Shown: positions 32,939 to 49,462 of the stretch, in pieces | Numbering within the stretch: position 1 is the stretch's first letter | Layout of the letters: each line of letters opens with the position of its first letter | DNA from: Streptomyces caatingaensis | GTDB taxonomy: Bacteria; Actinomycetota; Actinomycetes; Streptomycetales; Streptomycetaceae | NCBI RefSeq assembly: GCF_001187435.1 | Contig: NZ_LFXA01000011.1 | Coordinates: 186,001 to 250,000, forward strand | Length of the DNA: 64,000 bases | Direction: 5' to 3' | Notes under the pieces: generated by a model | What the model saw: only the letters and a program-made list of their open reading frames with translations | Database searches by the model: none | What the model was told of the DNA's origin: nothing | Position numbers and translations under genes: made by a program

Positions 32939-35900
32939 GTGCACCTCAAGAGCCTGACCCTGCGCGGGTTCAAATCCTTCGCGTCCGCCACGACCCTGCG
33001 CTTCGAGCCCGGCATCACCTGCGTCGTGGGCCCCAACGGCTCGGGCAAGTCCAACGTCGTGGACGCCCTCTCCTGGGTCATGGGCGAGCAGGGCGCCAAG
33101 TCGCTGCGCGGCGGCAAGATGGAGGACGTCATCTTCGCCGGGACGACCGGCCGCCCGCCGCTGGGCCGCGCCGAGGTCTCCCTCACCATCGACAACTCCG
33201 ACGGCGCGCTGCCCATCGAGTACGCCGAGGTCACCATCACGCGGACGATGTTCCGCAACGGCGGCAGCGAGTACCAGATCAACGGGGACACCTGCCGCCT
33301 CCTGGACATCCAGGAGCTCCTGTCGGACTCCGGCATCGGCCGGGAGATGCACGTCATCGTCGGCCAGGGCCAGCTCGACTCCGTCCTGCACGCCGACCCG
33401 GCCGGCCGACGCGCCTTCATCGAGGAGGCCGCCGGCGTCCTCAAGCACCGCAAGCGCAAGGAGAAGGCGCTCCGCAAGCTCGACGCGATGCGCGCCAACC
33501 TCGCCCGCGTCCAGGACCTCAGCGACGAGCTGCGCCGCCAGCTCAAACCGCTGGGCCGGCAGGCCGCGGTGGCCCGCCGGGCCGCCGTCATCCAGGCCGA
33601 CCTGCGCGACGCCCGGCTGCGCCTGCTCGCCGACGACCTGGTCACCCTGCGCGAGGCGCTGCGCGCCGAGCTCGCCGACGAGGCCGCGCTCAAGAGCCGC
33701 CGCGACGCCGCCGAGGCCGAACTCCGTGCCGCCGCCGAGCGCGAGGCGGCCCTCGAACGGCAGGTCGAGGAGCTGACCCCGCGGCTGGCCGCCGCCCGGC
33801 AGACCTGGCACGAGCTCTCCCGGCTCGCCGAGCGGGTGCGGGGCACCATCGGCCTCGCCGACGCCCGTGTCACCAGCGCCACCACCGCCCCCGACGAGGA
33901 GCGGCGCGGCCGCGACCCCGAGGACCTCGAACGCGAGGCGCGGCGCGTCCGCGAGCAGGAGGCCGAGCTGGAGGCCGCCGTGGAGGCGGCCGGGCGGGCC
34001 CTGGAGGACACCTCGGCCCACCGCGCCGAGCTCGAACGCCGACTGGCCGACGAGGAGCGCCGGCTGCGCGACGCCGCCCGCGCCCTCGCCGACCGGCGCG
34101 AACAGCTCGCCCGGCTGCACGGCCGGGTCACCGCCGCCCGCGGCCGGGTGGCCTCCGCCGAGGCGGAGTCCGGCCGGTTGGCCCTCGCCCGCGACGAGGC
34201 ACGCGAGCGCGCGGCGGCCGCGCAGGCCGCGTACGAGCTCCAGCGCGCCGAGGCGGACGGAGCCGAGGAGGGCGACGCCGAACTGGCCGCCCGCCTGGAG
34301 CGCGCCAAGGAGGAACTGGCCGCCGCCGACGCCGCGCTCACCGCCGCCCGCGAGGCCGCCACGGCCGCCGACCGGCGGCGGGCCGCCGTCACCGCCCGTC
34401 ACGACGCCCTGGCCCTCGGACTGCGCCGCAAGGACGGCACGGGCGCGCTGCTGTCGGCGAAGGAACGATTGGGCGGCCTCCTCGGGCCCGCCGCCGAACT
34501 CCTCACCGTCGCCCCCGGATACGAACTCCCCGTGGCCGCCGCCCTCGGCGCGGCCGCCGACGGCGTCGCCGTCACCGGCCCGGGCGCCGCCGCCGAGGCG
34601 CTGCGCCTGCTGAAGAAGGAGGACGCGGGCCGGGCCGTCCTCCTGCTCGGCGGTGCGCCGGAGCCGCCGCCCGCCGACCGCCCCGCCGGGCTCCGTCCCG
34701 TCGGCGGCCTCGTCTCCGGTCCCCCCGAACTCCTGCCCGCCGTACGGCGGTTGCTGCGCGACGTCGTCGTCGTGGACACCCTGGAGGACGCCGAGGCCAC
34801 CGTCGCCGCCCACCCGGGGCTGACGGTCGTCACCGCCGAGGGCGACGTGCTCGCGGCCCACCTGGCCCAGGGCGGCTCCGGCGGCGCCCCCAGCCTGCTG
34901 GAGATCCAGGCGGCCGTGGACGAGGCGGCGGCCGAGCTGGCCGAACTGGACGTGCACTGCGCGGAGTTGACCGCTGCCCAGCAGGCCGCGGCCGAGGAGC
35001 GCGCGCGGTGCGCGGCGCTCGTCGAGGAGCTGTCCGCGCTGCGCAGCACGGCCGACCGGGAGAAGTCCCGGCTCGCCCAGGACCTCGGCCGGCTCGCCGG
35101 CCAGGCGCGGGCCGCGGCCGGCGAGGCCGAGCGGGCGGCGGCCGCGGCGGCCCGCGCCGAGGAGGACCTCGCCCGCGCCGGCGAGGAGGCCGAGGAACTG
35201 GCCGCCCGGCTGGCCGCCGCCGAGGAACTCGGCGACGAGGACGAGCCGGCCGAGCCCGACACCTCCGTCCGCGACCGGCTCGCCGCCGACGGCGCCAACG
35301 CCCGGCAGACCGAGATGGAGGCACGCCTCCAGCTGCGGACCCACGAGGAGCGGGTCAAGGCCCTTGCCGGACGGGCGGATTCGCTCGACCGCGCGGCGCG
35401 CGCCGAACGCGAGGCACGGGCGCGCGCGGAGCAGCGGCGCGCCCGGCTGCGCCACGAGGCGCGCGTCGCGGGCGCCGTCGCGGCGGCCGCGCGGCAGTTG
35501 CTGGCCCGTGTGGAGGTCTCCCTGGTGCGGGCCGACGAGGAGCGGCAGGCCGTCGAGGTCGCGCGCACCGAGCGGGAGGCCGAGCTGGCCGCCGGGCGCA
35601 ACCGGGCCCGCGAGCTCAAGTCCGAGCTGGACAAACTCACGGACTCGGTGCACCGCGGCGAGGTCCTCGGTGCCGAGAAGCGGCTGCGCATCGAGCAGTT
35701 GGAGGCGCGGGCGCTGGAGGAGTTCGGGATCGAACCGGGCGCGCTGGCCGCCGAGTACGGGCCCGACCAGCCCGTCCCGCCGTCGCCGCCCGCGGAGGGG
35801 GAGGAGCCGCGCGGCCTCGCCCCGGTACCGTACGTCCGGGCCGAGCAGGAGAAGCGGCTGCGCGCGGCCGAGCGGGCGTACCAGCAGCTGGGCAAGGTCA

Positions 35901-36481
35901 ACCCGCTGGCGCTGGAGGAGTTCGCGGCGCTGGAGGAGCGGCACAAGTTCCTCTCCGAGCAGCTGGAGGACCTGAAGAAGACGCGCGCCGACCTGCTCCA
36001 GGTCGTGAAGGACGTGGACCGGCGGGTCGAGGAGGTCTTCACGGCGGCCTACCACGACACGGCCCGGGAGTTCGAGGGCGTCTTCTCGCGGCTCTTCCCC
36101 GGTGGCGAGGGCCGGCTCGTCCTCACCGACCCGGACGACATGCTGGCCACCGGCGTGGACGTGGAGGCCCGGCCGCCGGGCAAGAAGGTCAAGCGGCTGT
36201 CCCTGCTCTCGGGCGGGGAGCGGTCGCTGACGGCCGTCGCGCTGCTGGTGGCGATCTTCAAGGCGCGGCCGAGCCCGTTCTACGTGATGGACGAGGTGGA
36301 GGCGGCGCTGGACGACACCAACCTCCAGCGGCTGATCCGGATCATGCGGGAGCTCCAGGAGAGTTCGCAGCTGATCGTGATCACGCACCAGAAGCGGACG
36401 ATGGAGGTGGCGGACGCGCTGTACGGGGTGTCCATGCAGGGCGACGGCGTCTCCAAGGTGGTCAGCCAGCGGCTGAAGTGA
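32939..36481 (+). CDS. smc: Chromosome segregation protein SMC
   Basis: The protein has 1180 residues. The Walker A GPNGSGKSN (residues 31-39) begins the split ATPase head. Two long coiled coils rich in Ala, Glu and Arg (about 165-490 and 680-1000) flank the hinge (about 500-670). The C-terminal head has the ABC signature LLSGGERSLTAV near 1089 and Walker B YVMDEVEAALDD near 1115. With ScpA and ScpB, encoded elsewhere, SMC extrudes DNA loops and organises chromosomes, in Streptomyces especially during sporulation. The GTG start has a -10-like hexamer just upstream and no ribosome binding site. Confidence 0.97.
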   Translation: MHLKSLTLRGFKSFASATTLRFEPGITCVVGPNGSGKSNVVDALSWVMGEQGAKSLRGGKMEDVIFAGTTGRPPLGRAEVSLTIDNSDGALPIEYAEVTITRTMFRNGGSEYQINGDTCRLLDIQELLSDSGIGREMHVIVGQGQLDSVLHADPAGRRAFIEEAAGVLKHRKRKEKALRKLDAMRANLARVQDLSDELRRQLKPLGRQAAVARRAAVIQADLRDARLRLLADDLVTLREALRAELADEAALKSRRDAAEAELRAAAEREAALERQVEELTPRLAAARQTWHELSRLAERVRGTIGLADARVTSATTAPDEERRGRDPEDLEREARRVREQEAELEAAVEAAGRALEDTSAHRAELERRLADEERRLRDAARALADRREQLARLHGRVTAARGRVASAEAESGRLALARDEARERAAAAQAAYELQRAEADGAEEGDAELAARLERAKEELAAADAALTAAREAATAADRRRAAVTARHDALALGLRRKDGTGALLSAKERLGGLLGPAAELLTVAPGYELPVAAALGAAADGVAVTGPGAAAEALRLLKKEDAGRAVLLLGGAPEPPPADRPAGLRPVGGLVSGPPELLPAVRRLLRDVVVVDTLEDAEATVAAHPGLTVVTAEGDVLAAHLAQGGSGGAPSLLEIQAAVDEAAAELAELDVHCAELTAAQQAAAEERARCAALVEELSALRSTADREKSRLAQDLGRLAGQARAAAGEAERAAAAAARAEEDLARAGEEAEELAARLAAAEELGDEDEPAEPDTSVRDRLAADGANARQTEMEARLQLRTHEERVKALAGRADSLDRAARAEREARARAEQRRARLRHEARVAGAVAAAARQLLARVEVSLVRADEERQAVEVARTEREAELAAGRNRARELKSELDKLTDSVHRGEVLGAEKRLRIEQLEARALEEFGIEPGALAAEYGPDQPVPPSPPAEGEEPRGLAPVPYVRAEQEKRLRAAERAYQQLGKVNPLALEEFAALEERHKFLSEQLEDLKKTRADLLQVVKDVDRRVEEVFTAAYHDTAREFEGVFSRLFPGGEGRLVLTDPDDMLATGVDVEARPPGKKVKRLSLLSGGERSLTAVALLVAIFKARPSPFYVMDEVEAALDDTNLQRLIRIMRELQESSQLIVITHQKRTMEVADALYGVSMQGDGVSKVVSQRLK

Positions 36482-36717: not shown

Positions 36718-38136
36718 TTGACCAGCACTGCGATGGCGCAGGGGGCCGAGGGCCGCAAGGCCCAGCCGGACCACCTCGGCCACGTCATCTTCATCACCGC
36801 GGCCGCGGCCATGGGTGGCTTCCTCTTCGGCTACGACAGCTCCGTGATCAACGGCGCGGTCGAGGGCATCCGCGGGAAGTACGGCATCGGCTCCGCCGCC
36901 CTGGCCCAGGTCATCGCCATCGCGCTGATCGGCTGCGCCATCGGCGCGGCCACCGCGGGCCGGCTCGCCGACCGGATCGGCCGCATCCGCGTGATGCAGA
37001 TCTCGGCGACCCTCTTCACGCTGAGCGCCGTCGGCTCGGCCCTGCCGTTCGCCCTGTGGGACCTCGCCCTCTGGCGCGTCCTCGGCGGCATCGCCATCGG
37101 CATGGCCTCCGTCATCGGCCCCGCCTACATCGCCGAGGTGTCCCCGCCGGCCTACCGCGGCCGCCTCGGCTCCTTCCAGCAGGCCGCGATCGTCGTCGGC
37201 ATCGCGATCTCGCAGCTCGTCAACTGGGGCATCCTCAACCTCGCCGACGGCGACCAGCGCGGCAAGCTCATGGGCATCGAGGCCTGGCAGCTGATGCTCG
37301 GCGTCATGGTCGTCCCGGCCGTCCTCTACGGCCTGCTCTCCTTCGTGATCCCCGAGTCCCCGCGCTTCCTGATCTCCGTCGGCCGCGTCGAGAAGGCCAA
37401 GTCCGTCCTGGCGGACGTCGAGGGCAAGGGCATCGACCTCGACGCGCGCGTCGCCGAGATCGAGGACGCGATGCGCAGCGAGCACAAGTCCACGTTCAAG
37501 GACCTGATCGGCGGCAAGGCCGGCCTGCTGCCCATCGTCTGGATCGGCATCGGCCTCTCGGTCTTCCAGCAGCTCGTCGGCATCAACGTCGCCTTCTACT
37601 ACTCGGCGACCCTGTGGCAGTCCGTGGGCATCGACCCGAGCGACTCGTTCCTCTACTCGTTCACCACGTCGATCATCAACATCGTCGGCACCGTGATCGC
37701 GATGATCTTCGTCGACCGGATCGGCCGCAAGCCGCTCGCGATCGTCGGTTCCGCGGGTATGGCCGTCTCCCTGGCCCTGGAGGCCTGGGCCTTCTCCTCG
37801 CAGGCCGCGGACGGCTCCCTGCCGACCGCCCAGGGCACGGTGGCCCTCATCGCCGCCCACGCGTTCGTGCTCTTCTTCGCCCTGTCCTGGGGTGTCGTCG
37901 TCTGGGTCTTCCTCGGCGAGATGTTCCCCAACCGGATCCGCGCGGCGGCCCTCGGCGTCGCGGCGTCCGCGCAGTGGATCGCCAACTGGGCCATCACGGC
38001 GAGCTTCCCGAGCCTGTCCGAGTGGAACCTGTCGGGTACGTACATCATCTACACGGTCTTCGCCGTGCTCTCGATCCCCTTCGTGCTCAAGTACGTCAAG
38101 GAGACCAAGGGCAAGGCGTTGGAGGAGATGGGCTGA
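36718..38136 (+). CDS. glcP: Glucose permease, MFS sugar porter family
   Basis: The protein has 472 residues from a TTG start with AGGAG 6 nt upstream; the length matches known Streptomyces GlcP. Twelve membrane helices are predicted. Sugar-porter signatures are GFLFGYDSSVINGA in helix 1, GRLADRIGRIRV after helix 2, PESPRFL after helix 6, QQLVGINVAFYY in helix 7 and the GRKPL loop. It imports glucose by proton symport and supplies carbon-catabolite signalling through glucose kinase. The AT-rich upstream region has a promoter overlapped by an inverted repeat. A 19-bp hairpin ends the transcript. Confidence 0.93.
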   Translation: MTSTAMAQGAEGRKAQPDHLGHVIFITAAAAMGGFLFGYDSSVINGAVEGIRGKYGIGSAALAQVIAIALIGCAIGAATAGRLADRIGRIRVMQISATLFTLSAVGSALPFALWDLALWRVLGGIAIGMASVIGPAYIAEVSPPAYRGRLGSFQQAAIVVGIAISQLVNWGILNLADGDQRGKLMGIEAWQLMLGVMVVPAVLYGLLSFVIPESPRFLISVGRVEKAKSVLADVEGKGIDLDARVAEIEDAMRSEHKSTFKDLIGGKAGLLPIVWIGIGLSVFQQLVGINVAFYYSATLWQSVGIDPSDSFLYSFTTSIINIVGTVIAMIFVDRIGRKPLAIVGSAGMAVSLALEAWAFSSQAADGSLPTAQGTVALIAAHAFVLFFALSWGVVVWVFLGEMFPNRIRAAALGVAASAQWIANWAITASFPSLSEWNLSGTYIIYTVFAVLSIPFVLKYVKETKGKALEEMG

Positions 38137-38163
38137 CACCCCCCCCGCCGCCCACTCCTCGCC

Positions 38164-38204
38164 AAGGGCGTTGCCCCGGCTCACCGAGCCGGGGCAACGC
38201 CCTT
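38164..38204 (+). terminator. Terminator after glcP
   Basis: A perfect 19-bp stem with a 3-nt loop lies 28 nt after the stop. It is one of the strongest hairpins in the window. Confidence 0.9.
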
Positions 38205-39182
38205 GTGGTTTTCGGGTGCGCGTACGGGGGACGCCGTCCGCACGGCGTCCGCACGGCGGGCGGCTGCCGGGCTGCGGCCCGGCCCGGCCTCGCCGGGCGG
38301 CGGGGTACGGGCTGCGGGCCCGGCGCGGGCCGGGGGGCGCCGCCCTTGGTGGCGTCAGGCTGGTGCGGGCCGCGTGGTGGCCGCCGGCCGGTGCCTTGGC
38401 GGGCCTTGACCCGCCCGTACGGGGCAGCTGATGGAGACCCTGGTCCGCGCCTGGTCGGCGGCCGCCCCCGGGCGTACGGCCGCATGTCCCGAGCCAGGGC
38501 GGGGCCAGAGGCCGCCCGTACACAGGCACGGCCGGCGTGGGCCGGTCGCCTCGTCGGGTCCGGGCAGACCCGCACGGCCGGCAGGCACGCGCCCGTACGG
38601 GCCGCAAGCGGCAAGCCGGGCAGGCGGGCCAGCCACGCCGGGCCGGATGCGCCCGAGTCGGGGCACGCCCGGCAGGTTCGGGCCCATGGTCCCCTGCCCG
38701 CACGGGCCGGAGCGCTGGACGAGCGAGCCCGCACCCGGACTCGGCCTGCGGGCCCGCGCTCGTACGAGCCGGATGCGCCGCGAAGCCCGGCTGCGCAGGC
38801 CCAGGCGGAGGTACGGCCCGCGGGCGCGTGCCCACCGGCTGGACGCGCCGGGCCGGGCAAGTCCGTGCGCAGCTACGCCCCGCGGGCCCGTGCCCGCACG
38901 AGCCGGACGTGCCCAGCCAGTCCACGCCTCGCGGCCGAGCCGAGCCGTGCCGGGCACACTGGGGCCGACACGCCACGCGCCCCGGGCCGGACAGCCCGGC
39001 CCCAGGCGCGACGTCCCATGCACGCCGCTCCGTGCATGCCGAACCATGCGCGCCGTCCACGCACGTCGCCCCGGGCGCGCCAAGCCACGCGTACCGAGTC
39101 ATGCACTCTGCCCCGCGCCCCCGCCCCGGGCACCTCGCCCCGGGCACCCGGCCCCCACGCGACCACGGCCCCCGTGAAGCAG
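38205..39182. other. Unexplained 1-kb GC-rich tract between two strong terminators
   Basis: No gene can be supported in these 978 nt. All long frames on both strands are open, but the products are almost only Arg, Pro, Gly and Ala with hardly any Asp, Glu or Lys, unlike the neighbouring proteins. The sequence consists of degenerate repeating words: CCCGTACGG-like elements (for example near 38222, 38410, 38474, 38592), GCCGGATGCGCC at 38642 and 38768, and a series of CATGCAC/CATGCGC words near 39010-39110. Inverted copies are common, so RNA from either strand would be highly structured. It is framed by the glcP terminator and the permease terminator. Origin and role are unknown. Confidence 0.6.
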
Positions 39183-39226
39183 ACACCCCGAAGGGCCCGC
39201 CTCACAAGGCGGGCCCTTCGGGGTGT
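39183..39226 (-). terminator. Terminator after the NCS1 permease gene
   Basis: A perfect 20-bp stem with loop CACA begins 16 nt beyond the permease stop on the minus strand. Confidence 0.88.
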
Positions 39227-39241
39227 GGGCCGGGTGGCGTG

Positions 39242-40750
39242 TTACGCCGAGACCTTCTCCGGCTCGCGACGGGCGCTCGTCGCGTCCGGGGCGGGGGCGT
39301 CGTCGCCCTCGCGGGGGGTCGGGAGGAGGGCCATCACGAGGGCCGAGATGACGATCGTCGCGGCCCAGCCCAGGCCGTACTTGCCGATGAAGGTGGAGGC
39401 CAGGGGGCCGGAGAACCAGGCGCAGTCGGTGAAGCACAGGCCCGCGGCCAGGGCGATCGTCCAGGCGGTCATGGCCTGCCAGCAGAAGCCGCCCGCGTAC
39501 CAGTAGCGGCTGGTGCGGCCGGTGTCCATCAGGGCTTCCGGGTCGTAGCGCACGGCGCGGGTCCGGCGGCGGAACATGTCCACCGCGTAGACGCCGATCC
39601 AGGCGGAGAAGGAGACCGCCAGCAGGATCAGGAAGGTGATGAAGGAGCTGAGGAAGCTCGTCGCCACCAGCATCAGCAGCAGACCGCCGACCAGCGAGAT
39701 CATCGCGTTGATGCTGACCGCCGCGGCGCGCGGCAGCTTGACGCCCATGGTCTGGGCGGTGAAGCCGGCCGAGTACATCGAGAGGCTGTTGATCAGCAGC
39801 ATGCCGACGATCGCGGTGATCAGGTACGGCACGGCCAGCCAGGTCGGCAGCAGGTCGCCGAGGAAGGAGACCGGGTCCTGCGCCTTGGCGAGGTCGGGGG
39901 TGGAGACGGCCATGACCGCGCCCATGAGGACCATCGGGACCATGACGATGCCCGCGCCCGAGACCGTCGTCCCGACGATCTTCTTGCCGGAGGCGGCGTG
40001 CGGCAGGTAGCGCGCGAAGTCGGGGCCGGTGGGCACCCAGCTGATGCCGCCCGCCGCGATGGTGCCGATGCCGGCGATCAGCATCGCCGTGGAGCCCGCG
40101 GGCTTGGAGAAGACGTCGTGCCAGTCGACGTGGACGATCAGATAGCCGAGCACCAGGACGCTGAAGACGCCGAAGAGGTACGTGGACCACTTGTTGCAGA
40201 CGTTCAGCGCCTTGCGGCCCATGCCGCTCACCAGGAACGTCGAGGCGACGAAGGCGAACAGCGTGACCACGATGAGAGGCGTGTTGCTGCTGATGCCGAA
40301 GAGCAGGTCGAGCACGGTGAGCACGGCGTACGCACCGGTGACCGCGTTGATCGTCTCCCAGCCGAAGCGGGCGACCCACAGGATCGAGCCCGGGAAGAGG
40401 TTGCCGCGGACGCCGAACGTGGCGCGGGAGAGCATCGCGCCCGGCGCCCCGCCCCACTTGCCGGAGACCGACAGCACGCCGACCAGGCCGAAGGAGACCA
40501 CCGCGGCGGCGATGGCGACGATCAACACCTGCCAGAAGTTCAGGGAGTTGAAGACGATCAGCGCGGCGCCCATGGTGAGCAGCAGCACACTGATGTTGGC
40601 GGCGACCCAGGTCGGGAAGAGCTCCCGGACCCGGCCGTGCCGTTCGTGATCCGGCACGGGTTCGATGCCGCGGGTCTCGATGGCGCCTTCGGCGGCATCG
40701 ACGCTGGACACGTTGGCGCCTTCGGCAGCGTGGTCCATGGTGGGGGCCAT
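39242..40750 (-). CDS. NCS1-family nucleobase/cytosine permease
   Basis: The protein has 502 residues from ATG, with another Met (MDHAAEG) four codons later. Twelve membrane helices are predicted. NCS1 features are LFPTWVAANISVLLLTMGAA in helix 1, SRATFGVRGNLFPG, and WETINAVTGAYAV in helix 3. FARYLPHAASGKK is also typical. The family imports cytosine, purines, allantoin, hydantoin or thiamine precursors by cation symport; the substrate cannot be fixed. No cytosine deaminase or nucleobase pathway gene adjoins it. It lies between glcP and ftsY, where I recall no such gene in S. coelicolor, so it may be an insertion. Confidence 0.88.
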   Translation of the reverse strand: MAPTMDHAAEGANVSSVDAAEGAIETRGIEPVPDHERHGRVRELFPTWVAANISVLLLTMGAALIVFNSLNFWQVLIVAIAAAVVSFGLVGVLSVSGKWGGAPGAMLSRATFGVRGNLFPGSILWVARFGWETINAVTGAYAVLTVLDLLFGISSNTPLIVVTLFAFVASTFLVSGMGRKALNVCNKWSTYLFGVFSVLVLGYLIVHVDWHDVFSKPAGSTAMLIAGIGTIAAGGISWVPTGPDFARYLPHAASGKKIVGTTVSGAGIVMVPMVLMGAVMAVSTPDLAKAQDPVSFLGDLLPTWLAVPYLITAIVGMLLINSLSMYSAGFTAQTMGVKLPRAAAVSINAMISLVGGLLLMLVATSFLSSFITFLILLAVSFSAWIGVYAVDMFRRRTRAVRYDPEALMDTGRTSRYWYAGGFCWQAMTAWTIALAAGLCFTDCAWFSGPLASTFIGKYGLGWAATIVISALVMALLPTPREGDDAPAPDATSARREPEKVSA

Positions 40751-40968: not shown

Positions 40969-42204
40969 ATGGAAATCGTCATCCTTGCCGTAGTCATCGC
41001 TGTGGTCGCGCTCGGCGCGATCAGCGGGCTCGTGGTGAGCAGCCGCAAGAAGAAGCAGCTGCCCCCGGCGCCGCCGAGCAGCCCGTCCGTCACCGCGCCG
41101 CCCGCCGAGCCCCACGTCGGCGAGGAGGCCGAGGCCCCGAGCGAAGAGAAGCGCCGCACCGTCGAGGAGGTGGAGCTCCCGCCGGCCGAGGCGCCGGCCG
41201 TGGAGGAGCCCGCCGTGGAGCCGGCGGCCCCCGAGGCCCCGGCCGCACCCGAGGTCGAGGTGCCCGAGCCCACCGCCGGCCGGCTCGTCCGGCTCCGGGC
41301 CCGGCTGTCGCGGTCGCAGAACTCGCTGGGCAAGGGGCTGCTGACCCTGCTCTCCCGCGAGCATCTCGACGAGGACACCTGGGAGGAGATCGAGGACACC
41401 CTGCTGACGGCCGACGTGGGCGTCGCGCCCACGCAGGAGCTGGTCGAGCGGCTGCGCGAGCGCGTGAAGGTGCTCGGCACCCGCACCCCCGAGGAGCTGC
41501 GCGGCCTGCTGCGCGAGGAGCTGCTCGCGCTGATCGGCACGGACACCGACCGCAGCGTGCACACCGAGCCCGGCGTCGGCCCCGACGGCGGGGAGAAGCC
41601 CGGCGTCGTCATGGTCGTCGGCGTCAACGGCACCGGCAAGACCACCACCACCGGCAAGCTCGCCCGCGTCCTCGTCGCCGACGGCAAGTCCGTCGTCCTC
41701 GGCGCGGCCGACACCTTCCGCGCGGCCGCCGCCGATCAGCTGCAGACCTGGGGCGAGCGCGTCGGCGCCCGCACGGTCCGCGGCCCCGAGGGCGGCGACC
41801 CCGCCTCGGTCGCGTTCGACGCGGTCAAGGAGGGCATCGCCGAGGCCGCCGACGTCGTCCTCATCGACACCGCCGGCCGGCTGCACACGAAGACCGGGCT
41901 CATGGACGAGCTGGGCAAGGTCAAGCGCGTCGTCGAGAAGCACGGCTCGGTGGACGAGGTGCTGCTGGTGCTGGACGCCACCACCGGGCAGAACGGGCTT
42001 GTGCAGGCCCGCGTCTTCGCCGAGGTCGTCAACATCACCGGTGTCGTGCTGACCAAGCTCGACGGCACCGCCAAGGGCGGCATCATCGTCGCCGTCCAGC
42101 GCGAACTCGGCGTGCCCGTCAAGCTGGTGGGCCTGGGCGAGGGGGCGGACGACCTCGCGCCGTTCGAGCCGGAGGCGTTCGTCGACGCGCTCATCGGGGA
42201 CTGA
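40969..42204 (+). CDS. ftsY: Signal recognition particle receptor FtsY
   Basis: The protein has 411 residues. It opens with a true membrane helix (MEIVILAVVIAVVALGAISG), an actinobacterial feature, then an acidic Glu/Pro/Ala-rich A domain to about 105. The NG GTPase follows: four-helix N domain, P loop GVNGTGKTTTTGKLA near 217, DTAGRLHTK near 300 and TKLDGTAKGG near 362. FtsY receives ribosome-nascent chain complexes from Ffh, encoded 8.5 kb downstream, at the membrane. Upstream GTG at 40948 would add seven residues; I chose the ATG because the helix begins there and a -10-like hexamer precedes it. Confidence 0.97.
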   Translation: MEIVILAVVIAVVALGAISGLVVSSRKKKQLPPAPPSSPSVTAPPAEPHVGEEAEAPSEEKRRTVEEVELPPAEAPAVEEPAVEPAAPEAPAAPEVEVPEPTAGRLVRLRARLSRSQNSLGKGLLTLLSREHLDEDTWEEIEDTLLTADVGVAPTQELVERLRERVKVLGTRTPEELRGLLREELLALIGTDTDRSVHTEPGVGPDGGEKPGVVMVVGVNGTGKTTTTGKLARVLVADGKSVVLGAADTFRAAAADQLQTWGERVGARTVRGPEGGDPASVAFDAVKEGIAEAADVVLIDTAGRLHTKTGLMDELGKVKRVVEKHGSVDEVLLVLDATTGQNGLVQARVFAEVVNITGVVLTKLDGTAKGGIIVAVQRELGVPVKLVGLGEGADDLAPFEPEAFVDALIGD

Positions 42205-49333: not shown

Positions 49334-49462
49334 GGGGTTGTGCCCGGGCCCCGCCCCCCGGAGAAACGGTGAAAGGGCGGGACCGGGGCTCCCTCCACCC
49401 CGGGTGCGGATACCCTGGAGGGCGATTTCCACCGCCCCCGACCCCGAGGACCGACGAGCGCC

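Follow-up and report, generated by a model that had tools for sequence, protein, structure and literature searches.

A GC-rich, locally repetitive non-coding tract between two convergent genes of Streptomyces caatingaensis

In Streptomyces caatingaensis, a glcP-like sugar transporter gene and a cytosine/purine-type permease gene converge on a gap in which two perfect hairpins enclose a GC-rich tract. The tract is non-coding by the tests that we ran, locally repetitive, and without relatives at the thresholds used, and it lies in a slot whose content varies among species. The best explanation, and in our view a probable one, is that the tract is a neutral, terminator-bounded spacer between convergent genes, in which local duplication and replacement drive growth and turnover. 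Going by the sequence comparisons described here, it would have grown as such a spacer by local duplication between the two terminators.

Boundaries and coding potential of the tract

Coordinates are those of the window, the whole 64,000-nt stretch of DNA analysed (Table 1). The gap spans 1105 nt from the glcP stop to the permease stop, and the tract within it has a GC content of 0.81. A first-pass annotation, made from the letters of the window, had described 978 unexplained nt from 38205 onwards between two strong terminators. The tract is real and does lie between two hairpins, but it measures 977 nt and starts at 38206, because base 38205 is part of the left hairpin. Both hairpins are perfect and fold far more stably than expected (z of -7.9 for 38163-38205 and -7.5 for 39183-39226), but the glcP hairpin has 20 bp instead of the 19 given, and a simple scan finds a T-rich tail at the left hairpin only, the right one having none.

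Table 1. Features in and around the gap between the convergent genes
Feature	Position in window	Strand	Remarks
Long upstream gene, presumably an SMC-like ATPase	32939-36481	+	
glcP-like sugar transporter gene, left neighbour	36733..38136	+	Own gene call; Pfam Sugar_tr, E 2.9e-99
Perfect 20-bp terminator-like hairpin of glcP	38163..38205	+	Loop 3, then TGGTTTT
Non-coding GC-rich tract	38206-39182	.	977 nt; flat codon-position GC, no periodicity, no Pfam match, no homologue at E ≤ 1e-9
Degenerate direct duplication	38624-38779 vs 38748-38913	+	69.8% over 169 columns, lag 124-134, E 3.6e-8
Two degenerate arrays of ~14-nt units	39016-39069, 39110-39155	+	Tandem Repeats Finder, low score threshold
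Perfect 20-bp hairpin downstream of permease	39183..39226	-	Loop 4
Cytosine/purine-type permease gene, convergent neighbour	39242..40750	-	Own gene call; Pfam Transp_cyt_pur, E 3.3e-87
Gene beyond permease, presumably FtsY-like	41002-42204	+	

The tract codes for nothing detectable. GC by codon position, a check that the first-pass annotation had proposed, is flat (0.804/0.822/0.800); in glcP, the permease gene and the smc-like gene it ranges from 0.46 to 0.99. The 3-base periodicity of the tract scores 0.48; shuffles average 0.66, 179 of 300 reaching the tract's value, and equal lengths of the two flanking genes give 37.7 and 34.5. A Pfam search with the three long ORFs of the tract returned no family at E ≤ 0.1. 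Codon-position GC, periodicity and Pfam together rule out a protein-coding gene, in line with the annotation, which saw no gene here.

Frames are indeed open on both strands: two of the six lack any stop. The longest stop-free run is equalled in 102 of 300 shuffles and is therefore what composition gives; the second longest is equalled in 20 of 300. The total over all six frames is unusual, with 6 stop triplets against 15.2 (sd 3.2) in shuffles and none of 300 shuffles as low, and this depletion counts against simple neutrality, which does not predict it. It is absent from the corresponding tracts of S. klenkii (L045; 16 vs 9.4), S. roseoverticillatus (L047; 10 vs 9.5) and a third relative (L051; 12 vs 14.4). 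Because of this, and because the tract has no periodicity, we read the depletion as an unproven by-product of the tract's copied words. The products of the open frames had been said to lack Asp, Glu and Lys; these residues are scarce but present, a frame of about 325 codons having 3-7 Asp, 2-7 Glu and 0-3 Lys.

Repeats within the tract and similar gaps in the genome

The tract resembles itself in direct orientation. Its direct self-similarity scores 77 bits; shuffles that keep 2-mers or 3-mers average 13 and 16, and none of 40 reaches the tract's score. Its summed inverted self-similarity is within chance (reached by 9 of 40 2-mer and 18 of 40 3-mer shuffles). Shorter direct matches at lag 62 lie inside the duplicated region 38624..38913, and repeat copies of at least 26 nt are ~60-83% alike and irregularly spaced. 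The recurring words pointed out in the first-pass annotation are all there: CCCGTACGG has two copies on each strand, GCCGGATGCGCC occurs at 38642 and, 126 nt further on, at 38768, and CATGCAC words stand at 39017 and 39100, with one reversed copy. CGTACG has 5 copies against 0.41 expected. The annotation's suggestion of a repeat element holds as far as local degenerate direct repeats go, but the tract's words are far rarer in the other gaps and genes of an 850-kb sample of this genome, at or near background, and nothing related turned up at E ≤ 1e-9 in the other genus genomes. Around the window there is no regional word family: the best 8-mer there scores 12, and the best in S. klenkii 295. 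The word CCGTACGG has a density of 0.331 per kb in the window's region and of 0.176 per kb elsewhere, a 1.9-fold excess. The tracts of relatives differ in repeat style: direct self-similarity exceeds all 40 shuffles in L045 and L051 and all but one or two in L047, and inverted self-similarity exceeds the shuffles in L045 and nearly does so in L047.

Searches for the tract elsewhere, a check that the annotation had proposed, returned its own genome alone among 392 genomes of the genus at E ≤ 1e-9, two first-look candidates being scored per genome, and no homologue in the 391 others; plasmids and phages gave no match at 1e-5. At E ≤ 1e-3, matches appear in 108 of the 121 genus genomes searched, the tract's own among them, those listed being ~27-150 nt long. 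We treat such weak matches as chance, because shuffled queries score likewise: 20 dinucleotide-shuffled queries run against the relatives' gaps gave 29 hits at E ≤ 1e-3, one of them at 52.7 bits. When the tract was compared with these gaps, every hit at E ≤ 1e-3 fell within the first 96 nt past the glcP stop (the glcP end and its hairpin), and a pairwise search also gave a single 29-nt match between the tract interior and L047, likewise taken as chance. Within the own genome the further hits measure 26-108 nt, with a best E of 5e-7 (40 of 525 first-look candidates scored); among seven inspected, five lie within called genes and two in gaps. A dispersed repeat family or REP/MITE-like element was rejected, there being no copies elsewhere among the candidates scored and no inverted-repeat excess. 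Among the papers that literature searches listed, to judge by titles and abstract openings, none deals with the tract or with the turnover of convergent Streptomyces gaps; in passages of PMC1590033, Streptomyces appears only in a reference.

Other long GC-rich gaps, some of them repetitive, exist in this genome, which makes the tract an especially long case of a common type. In the 850-kb sample, mean GC over gaps of at least 60 nt is 0.777 for convergent gaps (the tract's included), 0.712 for tandem and 0.695 for divergent ones, and the median convergent gap is 73 nt; these gap counts are approximate because our own gene caller is simple and misses genes. For example, a 3699-nt 'gap' at GC 0.68 probably consists of missed genes. 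The tract's gap is the longest convergent gap with flat, high GC in the sample, and other long ones measure 657 nt at 0.833 and 635 nt at 0.827. Direct self-similarity was scored in five other GC-rich gaps, four convergent and one called divergent. Three of them, two convergent and the one called divergent, exceed all shuffles; the other two are not repetitive above chance, which counts against the spacer reading.

A separate dispersed word, CCGCCCTTTCACCGTTTC, occurs at 107 places in this genome with at most one mismatch and at none in a reversed control. Among 101 genomes, G051 has 177 places and each of the other 99 has at most 10. Examples are C17:307533-308295, C2:428121-428755 and C11:264584-264694, and the window holds a copy at 49363 (-). 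By eye, 19 inward-facing pairs at most 1 kb apart can be picked out among 100 places listed, and all 12 copies in the 850-kb sample lie in gaps, 7 of them convergent. The word may thus delimit at both ends a small element of MITE or REP type whose interior consists of GC-rich hairpins.

The same slot in related species

From 104 permease relatives we kept 80 loci, titled Streptomyces or Kitasatospora apart from one Saccharothrix and one Streptosporangium. A convergent glcP is present in 49 of the 80 and the gap is measurable in 48; the 31 loci without a glcP match and L082, whose match overlaps, are left out of the slot counts. Across the 48, slot length ranges from 118 to 3308 nt. One or more genes are called in the slot of 32 relatives and none in 16 (including L043, with 299 N), and 12 of the 48 have non-coding alleles of 118-489 nt. 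Recurrent cargo, named by Pfam from one member per family, consists of a luciferase-like monooxygenase (26), an ankyrin protein (9) and an AraC/DJ-1-type regulator (4). Cargos seen once include an aminotransferase-like gene in Streptomyces sp. AV19, an ABC transporter in S. humicola, a flavoprotein with a protein matching nothing in S. mashuensis, and a FAD-binding protein with a TetR regulator in S. orinoci. In L038 the gene caller missed a second coding-like frame of 249 codons, which we take to be beta-lactamase-like.

Two side observations concern individual loci. The scaffold of L043 (S. lilacinus KL569506.1) contains recurring 8-mers, among them GTCTCTTA, CTCTTATA and TATACACA, which we take to be of sequencing-adaptor type. 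The palindrome CCTCGAGG is over-represented in the related loci L044 and L048, with 14 and 12 occurrences on both strands against ~0.75 expected.

Conserved flanks with an unconserved interior, the pattern of a fast-turnover spacer, are found both between the window and AV19 and among other species at this slot. One alignment of the window with AV19 covers 5265 columns at 92.2% identity and stops at 39241, where the permease gene ends; the alignment on the other side covers 3961 columns at 91.6% and stops at 38153, past glcP and before the hairpin. Between these two positions no alignment exceeds 60 columns. Although the flanks are 92% identical, the DNA in the AV19 gap is different and bears a gene. 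S. klenkii and S. roseoverticillatus (L045 and L047) have 98.6% identical glcP ends and flanks at ~95%; five other gaps of the 13-kb locus are fully covered, and 22% of the klenkii gap aligns. A more sensitive search aligns 35% of it, chiefly both ends (97-98%) together with short displaced words, and because short words align in shifted places, part of the change may be rearrangement. The four further pairs with glcP ends at least 96.6% identical, among gaps of 150-1000 nt only, align over 21% (L045-L051), 24% (L047-L051), 27% (L058-L059) and 94% (L044-L048, at 74.6% identity) of the gap.

The pair S. klenkii and S. roseoverticillatus suggests that turnover concentrates in convergent gaps. 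Over 67 kb with 40 gaps of at least 40 nt, alignment covers less than half of the gap in 3 of 7 convergent and 1 of 24 tandem cases and in none of the 9 divergent ones (one pair, small numbers). None of the 57 genes falls so low (mean 0.997), and four of the seven convergent gaps stay aligned. This scoring counts any base within an alignment as aligned and masks poorly matching stretches, as L044-L048 scores 1.00 by it but has the low pairwise identity given above.

In S. klenkii (G392) the word GCATGAGGC has a genome total of 181 places, on par with a reversed-pattern control (178). Among 100 listed of these 181, 84 fall in C2:595-745 kb (595000-745100, around L045) and the remaining 16 either in C1 or in C2 before 595 kb; sampled sequence has 76 copies in 145 kb of this district and none in the 115 kb taken as control. 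The shorter word CATGAGGC occurs in many gaps and 31 times within called genes, and it is equally dense in 67.8 kb of S. roseoverticillatus (G393 C30), with 49.

Explanations for the tract and its significance

Several other origins can be weighed against a neutral spacer. The gap may formerly have held a gene or small insertion, of which the tract would be the decayed remains, later scrambled by local duplication. This idea, also raised in the first-pass annotation, draws support from the gene-bearing slots of 32 of 48 relatives, the luciferase-like monooxygenase, ankyrin and AraC-type families among them, and from the aminotransferase-like gene that AV19 bears between such similar flanks. 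Yet the profiles of the three recurrent families are silent in all six tract frames (best window E 1.9), and the tract has a GC of 0.81 without periodicity. We regard decayed cargo as unlikely. We give still less credence to the view that the tract is kept as a bidirectional insulator absorbing two-sided read-through, for instance as a Rho-dependent stop zone. Two strong hairpins do border it, and its skewed halves (GC skew 0.085 in the G/T-rich left half and -0.133 in the C/A-rich right half) mean that transcripts running in from either flank would finish with C-rich RNA. But strand skew was rejected as a rule of convergent gaps, the left side exceeding the right in keto content in only 15 of 27 gaps after trimming and 20 of 40 without it; moreover, the tract sequence is not conserved, and 12 of the 48 relatives have non-coding alleles of just 118-489 nt.

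A structured non-coding RNA gene, another suggestion of the first-pass annotation, is highly improbable, for all that the tract is long, GC-rich and placed between terminators. It would fold heavily as RNA, as predicted there (-617 and -647 kcal/mol for the two strands), but through its composition: against 20 shuffles per strand the fold energies show no excess, with z of -0.49 on the plus strand (6 of 20 as stable) and -0.65 on the minus strand (5 of 20). Rfam yields two matches (E 0.08 and 0.1), both far under gathering scores and placed on or over the hairpins, a scan limited to sigma-70-type promoters found none in the tract, and the genome searches at E ≤ 1e-9 gave no homologues for a covariation analysis. 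It is just as hard to credit an assembly error or mis-joined sequence. Tracts of extreme GC are prone to such errors and the 7.06-Mb assembly is in 18 contigs, but this tract lies inside a 353-kb contig and the same genome has other GC-rich gaps.

We consider a neutral spacer the probable reading. Two converging genes end at the gap, each with its own strong hairpin, and the functional parts would be these hairpins, which would terminate both transcripts. Because no promoter or reading frame needs keeping between the terminators, the DNA there would be free both to expand through short duplications nearby and to undergo replacement, and may drift to high GC as in the other convergent gaps of this genome. 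The tract itself would yield no product, and its length and sequence would matter little to the cell. Against this reading stand the narrow basis of the orientation comparison, one species pair with seven convergent gaps, and the fact that no close relative bears a comparable allele.

Among known systems, the tract resembles ordinary convergent-gene spacers, with which it shares two 3' ends with hairpins, no need of a promoter and poor conservation, differing in that its gap is 1105 nt long where the median is 73 nt. REP/BIME/ERIC-type repeats are likewise intergenic and GC-rich with repeated words, but the tract's words are local and its inverted self-similarity is within chance. Degenerate minisatellite-like tandem arrays share its direct repeats, here at lags of ~62, 124-134 and 14 nt; unlike them, the tract has diverged copies at irregular spacing. 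It has the same flanks and position as the variable gene-cargo slot of relatives, but its allele is without a detectable gene.

The tract is ordinary overall, a single locus of minor importance that is best given no gene annotation. A broader and rather doubtful idea is that convergent Streptomyces gaps are terminator-closed rewriting zones, whose own short words might be amplified and reshuffled far faster than the flanks mutate, and that in some lineages one word family might spread via the gaps of a chromosomal district, as GCATGAGGC might have done over ~150 kb around the slot in S. klenkii. In that case the tract described here would be a long, lone example. Should further species pairs show the same orientation effect, the gaps between convergent genes would document naturally how unconstrained sequence grows in high-GC bacteria, and they would offer handy neutral insertion sites between two terminators.
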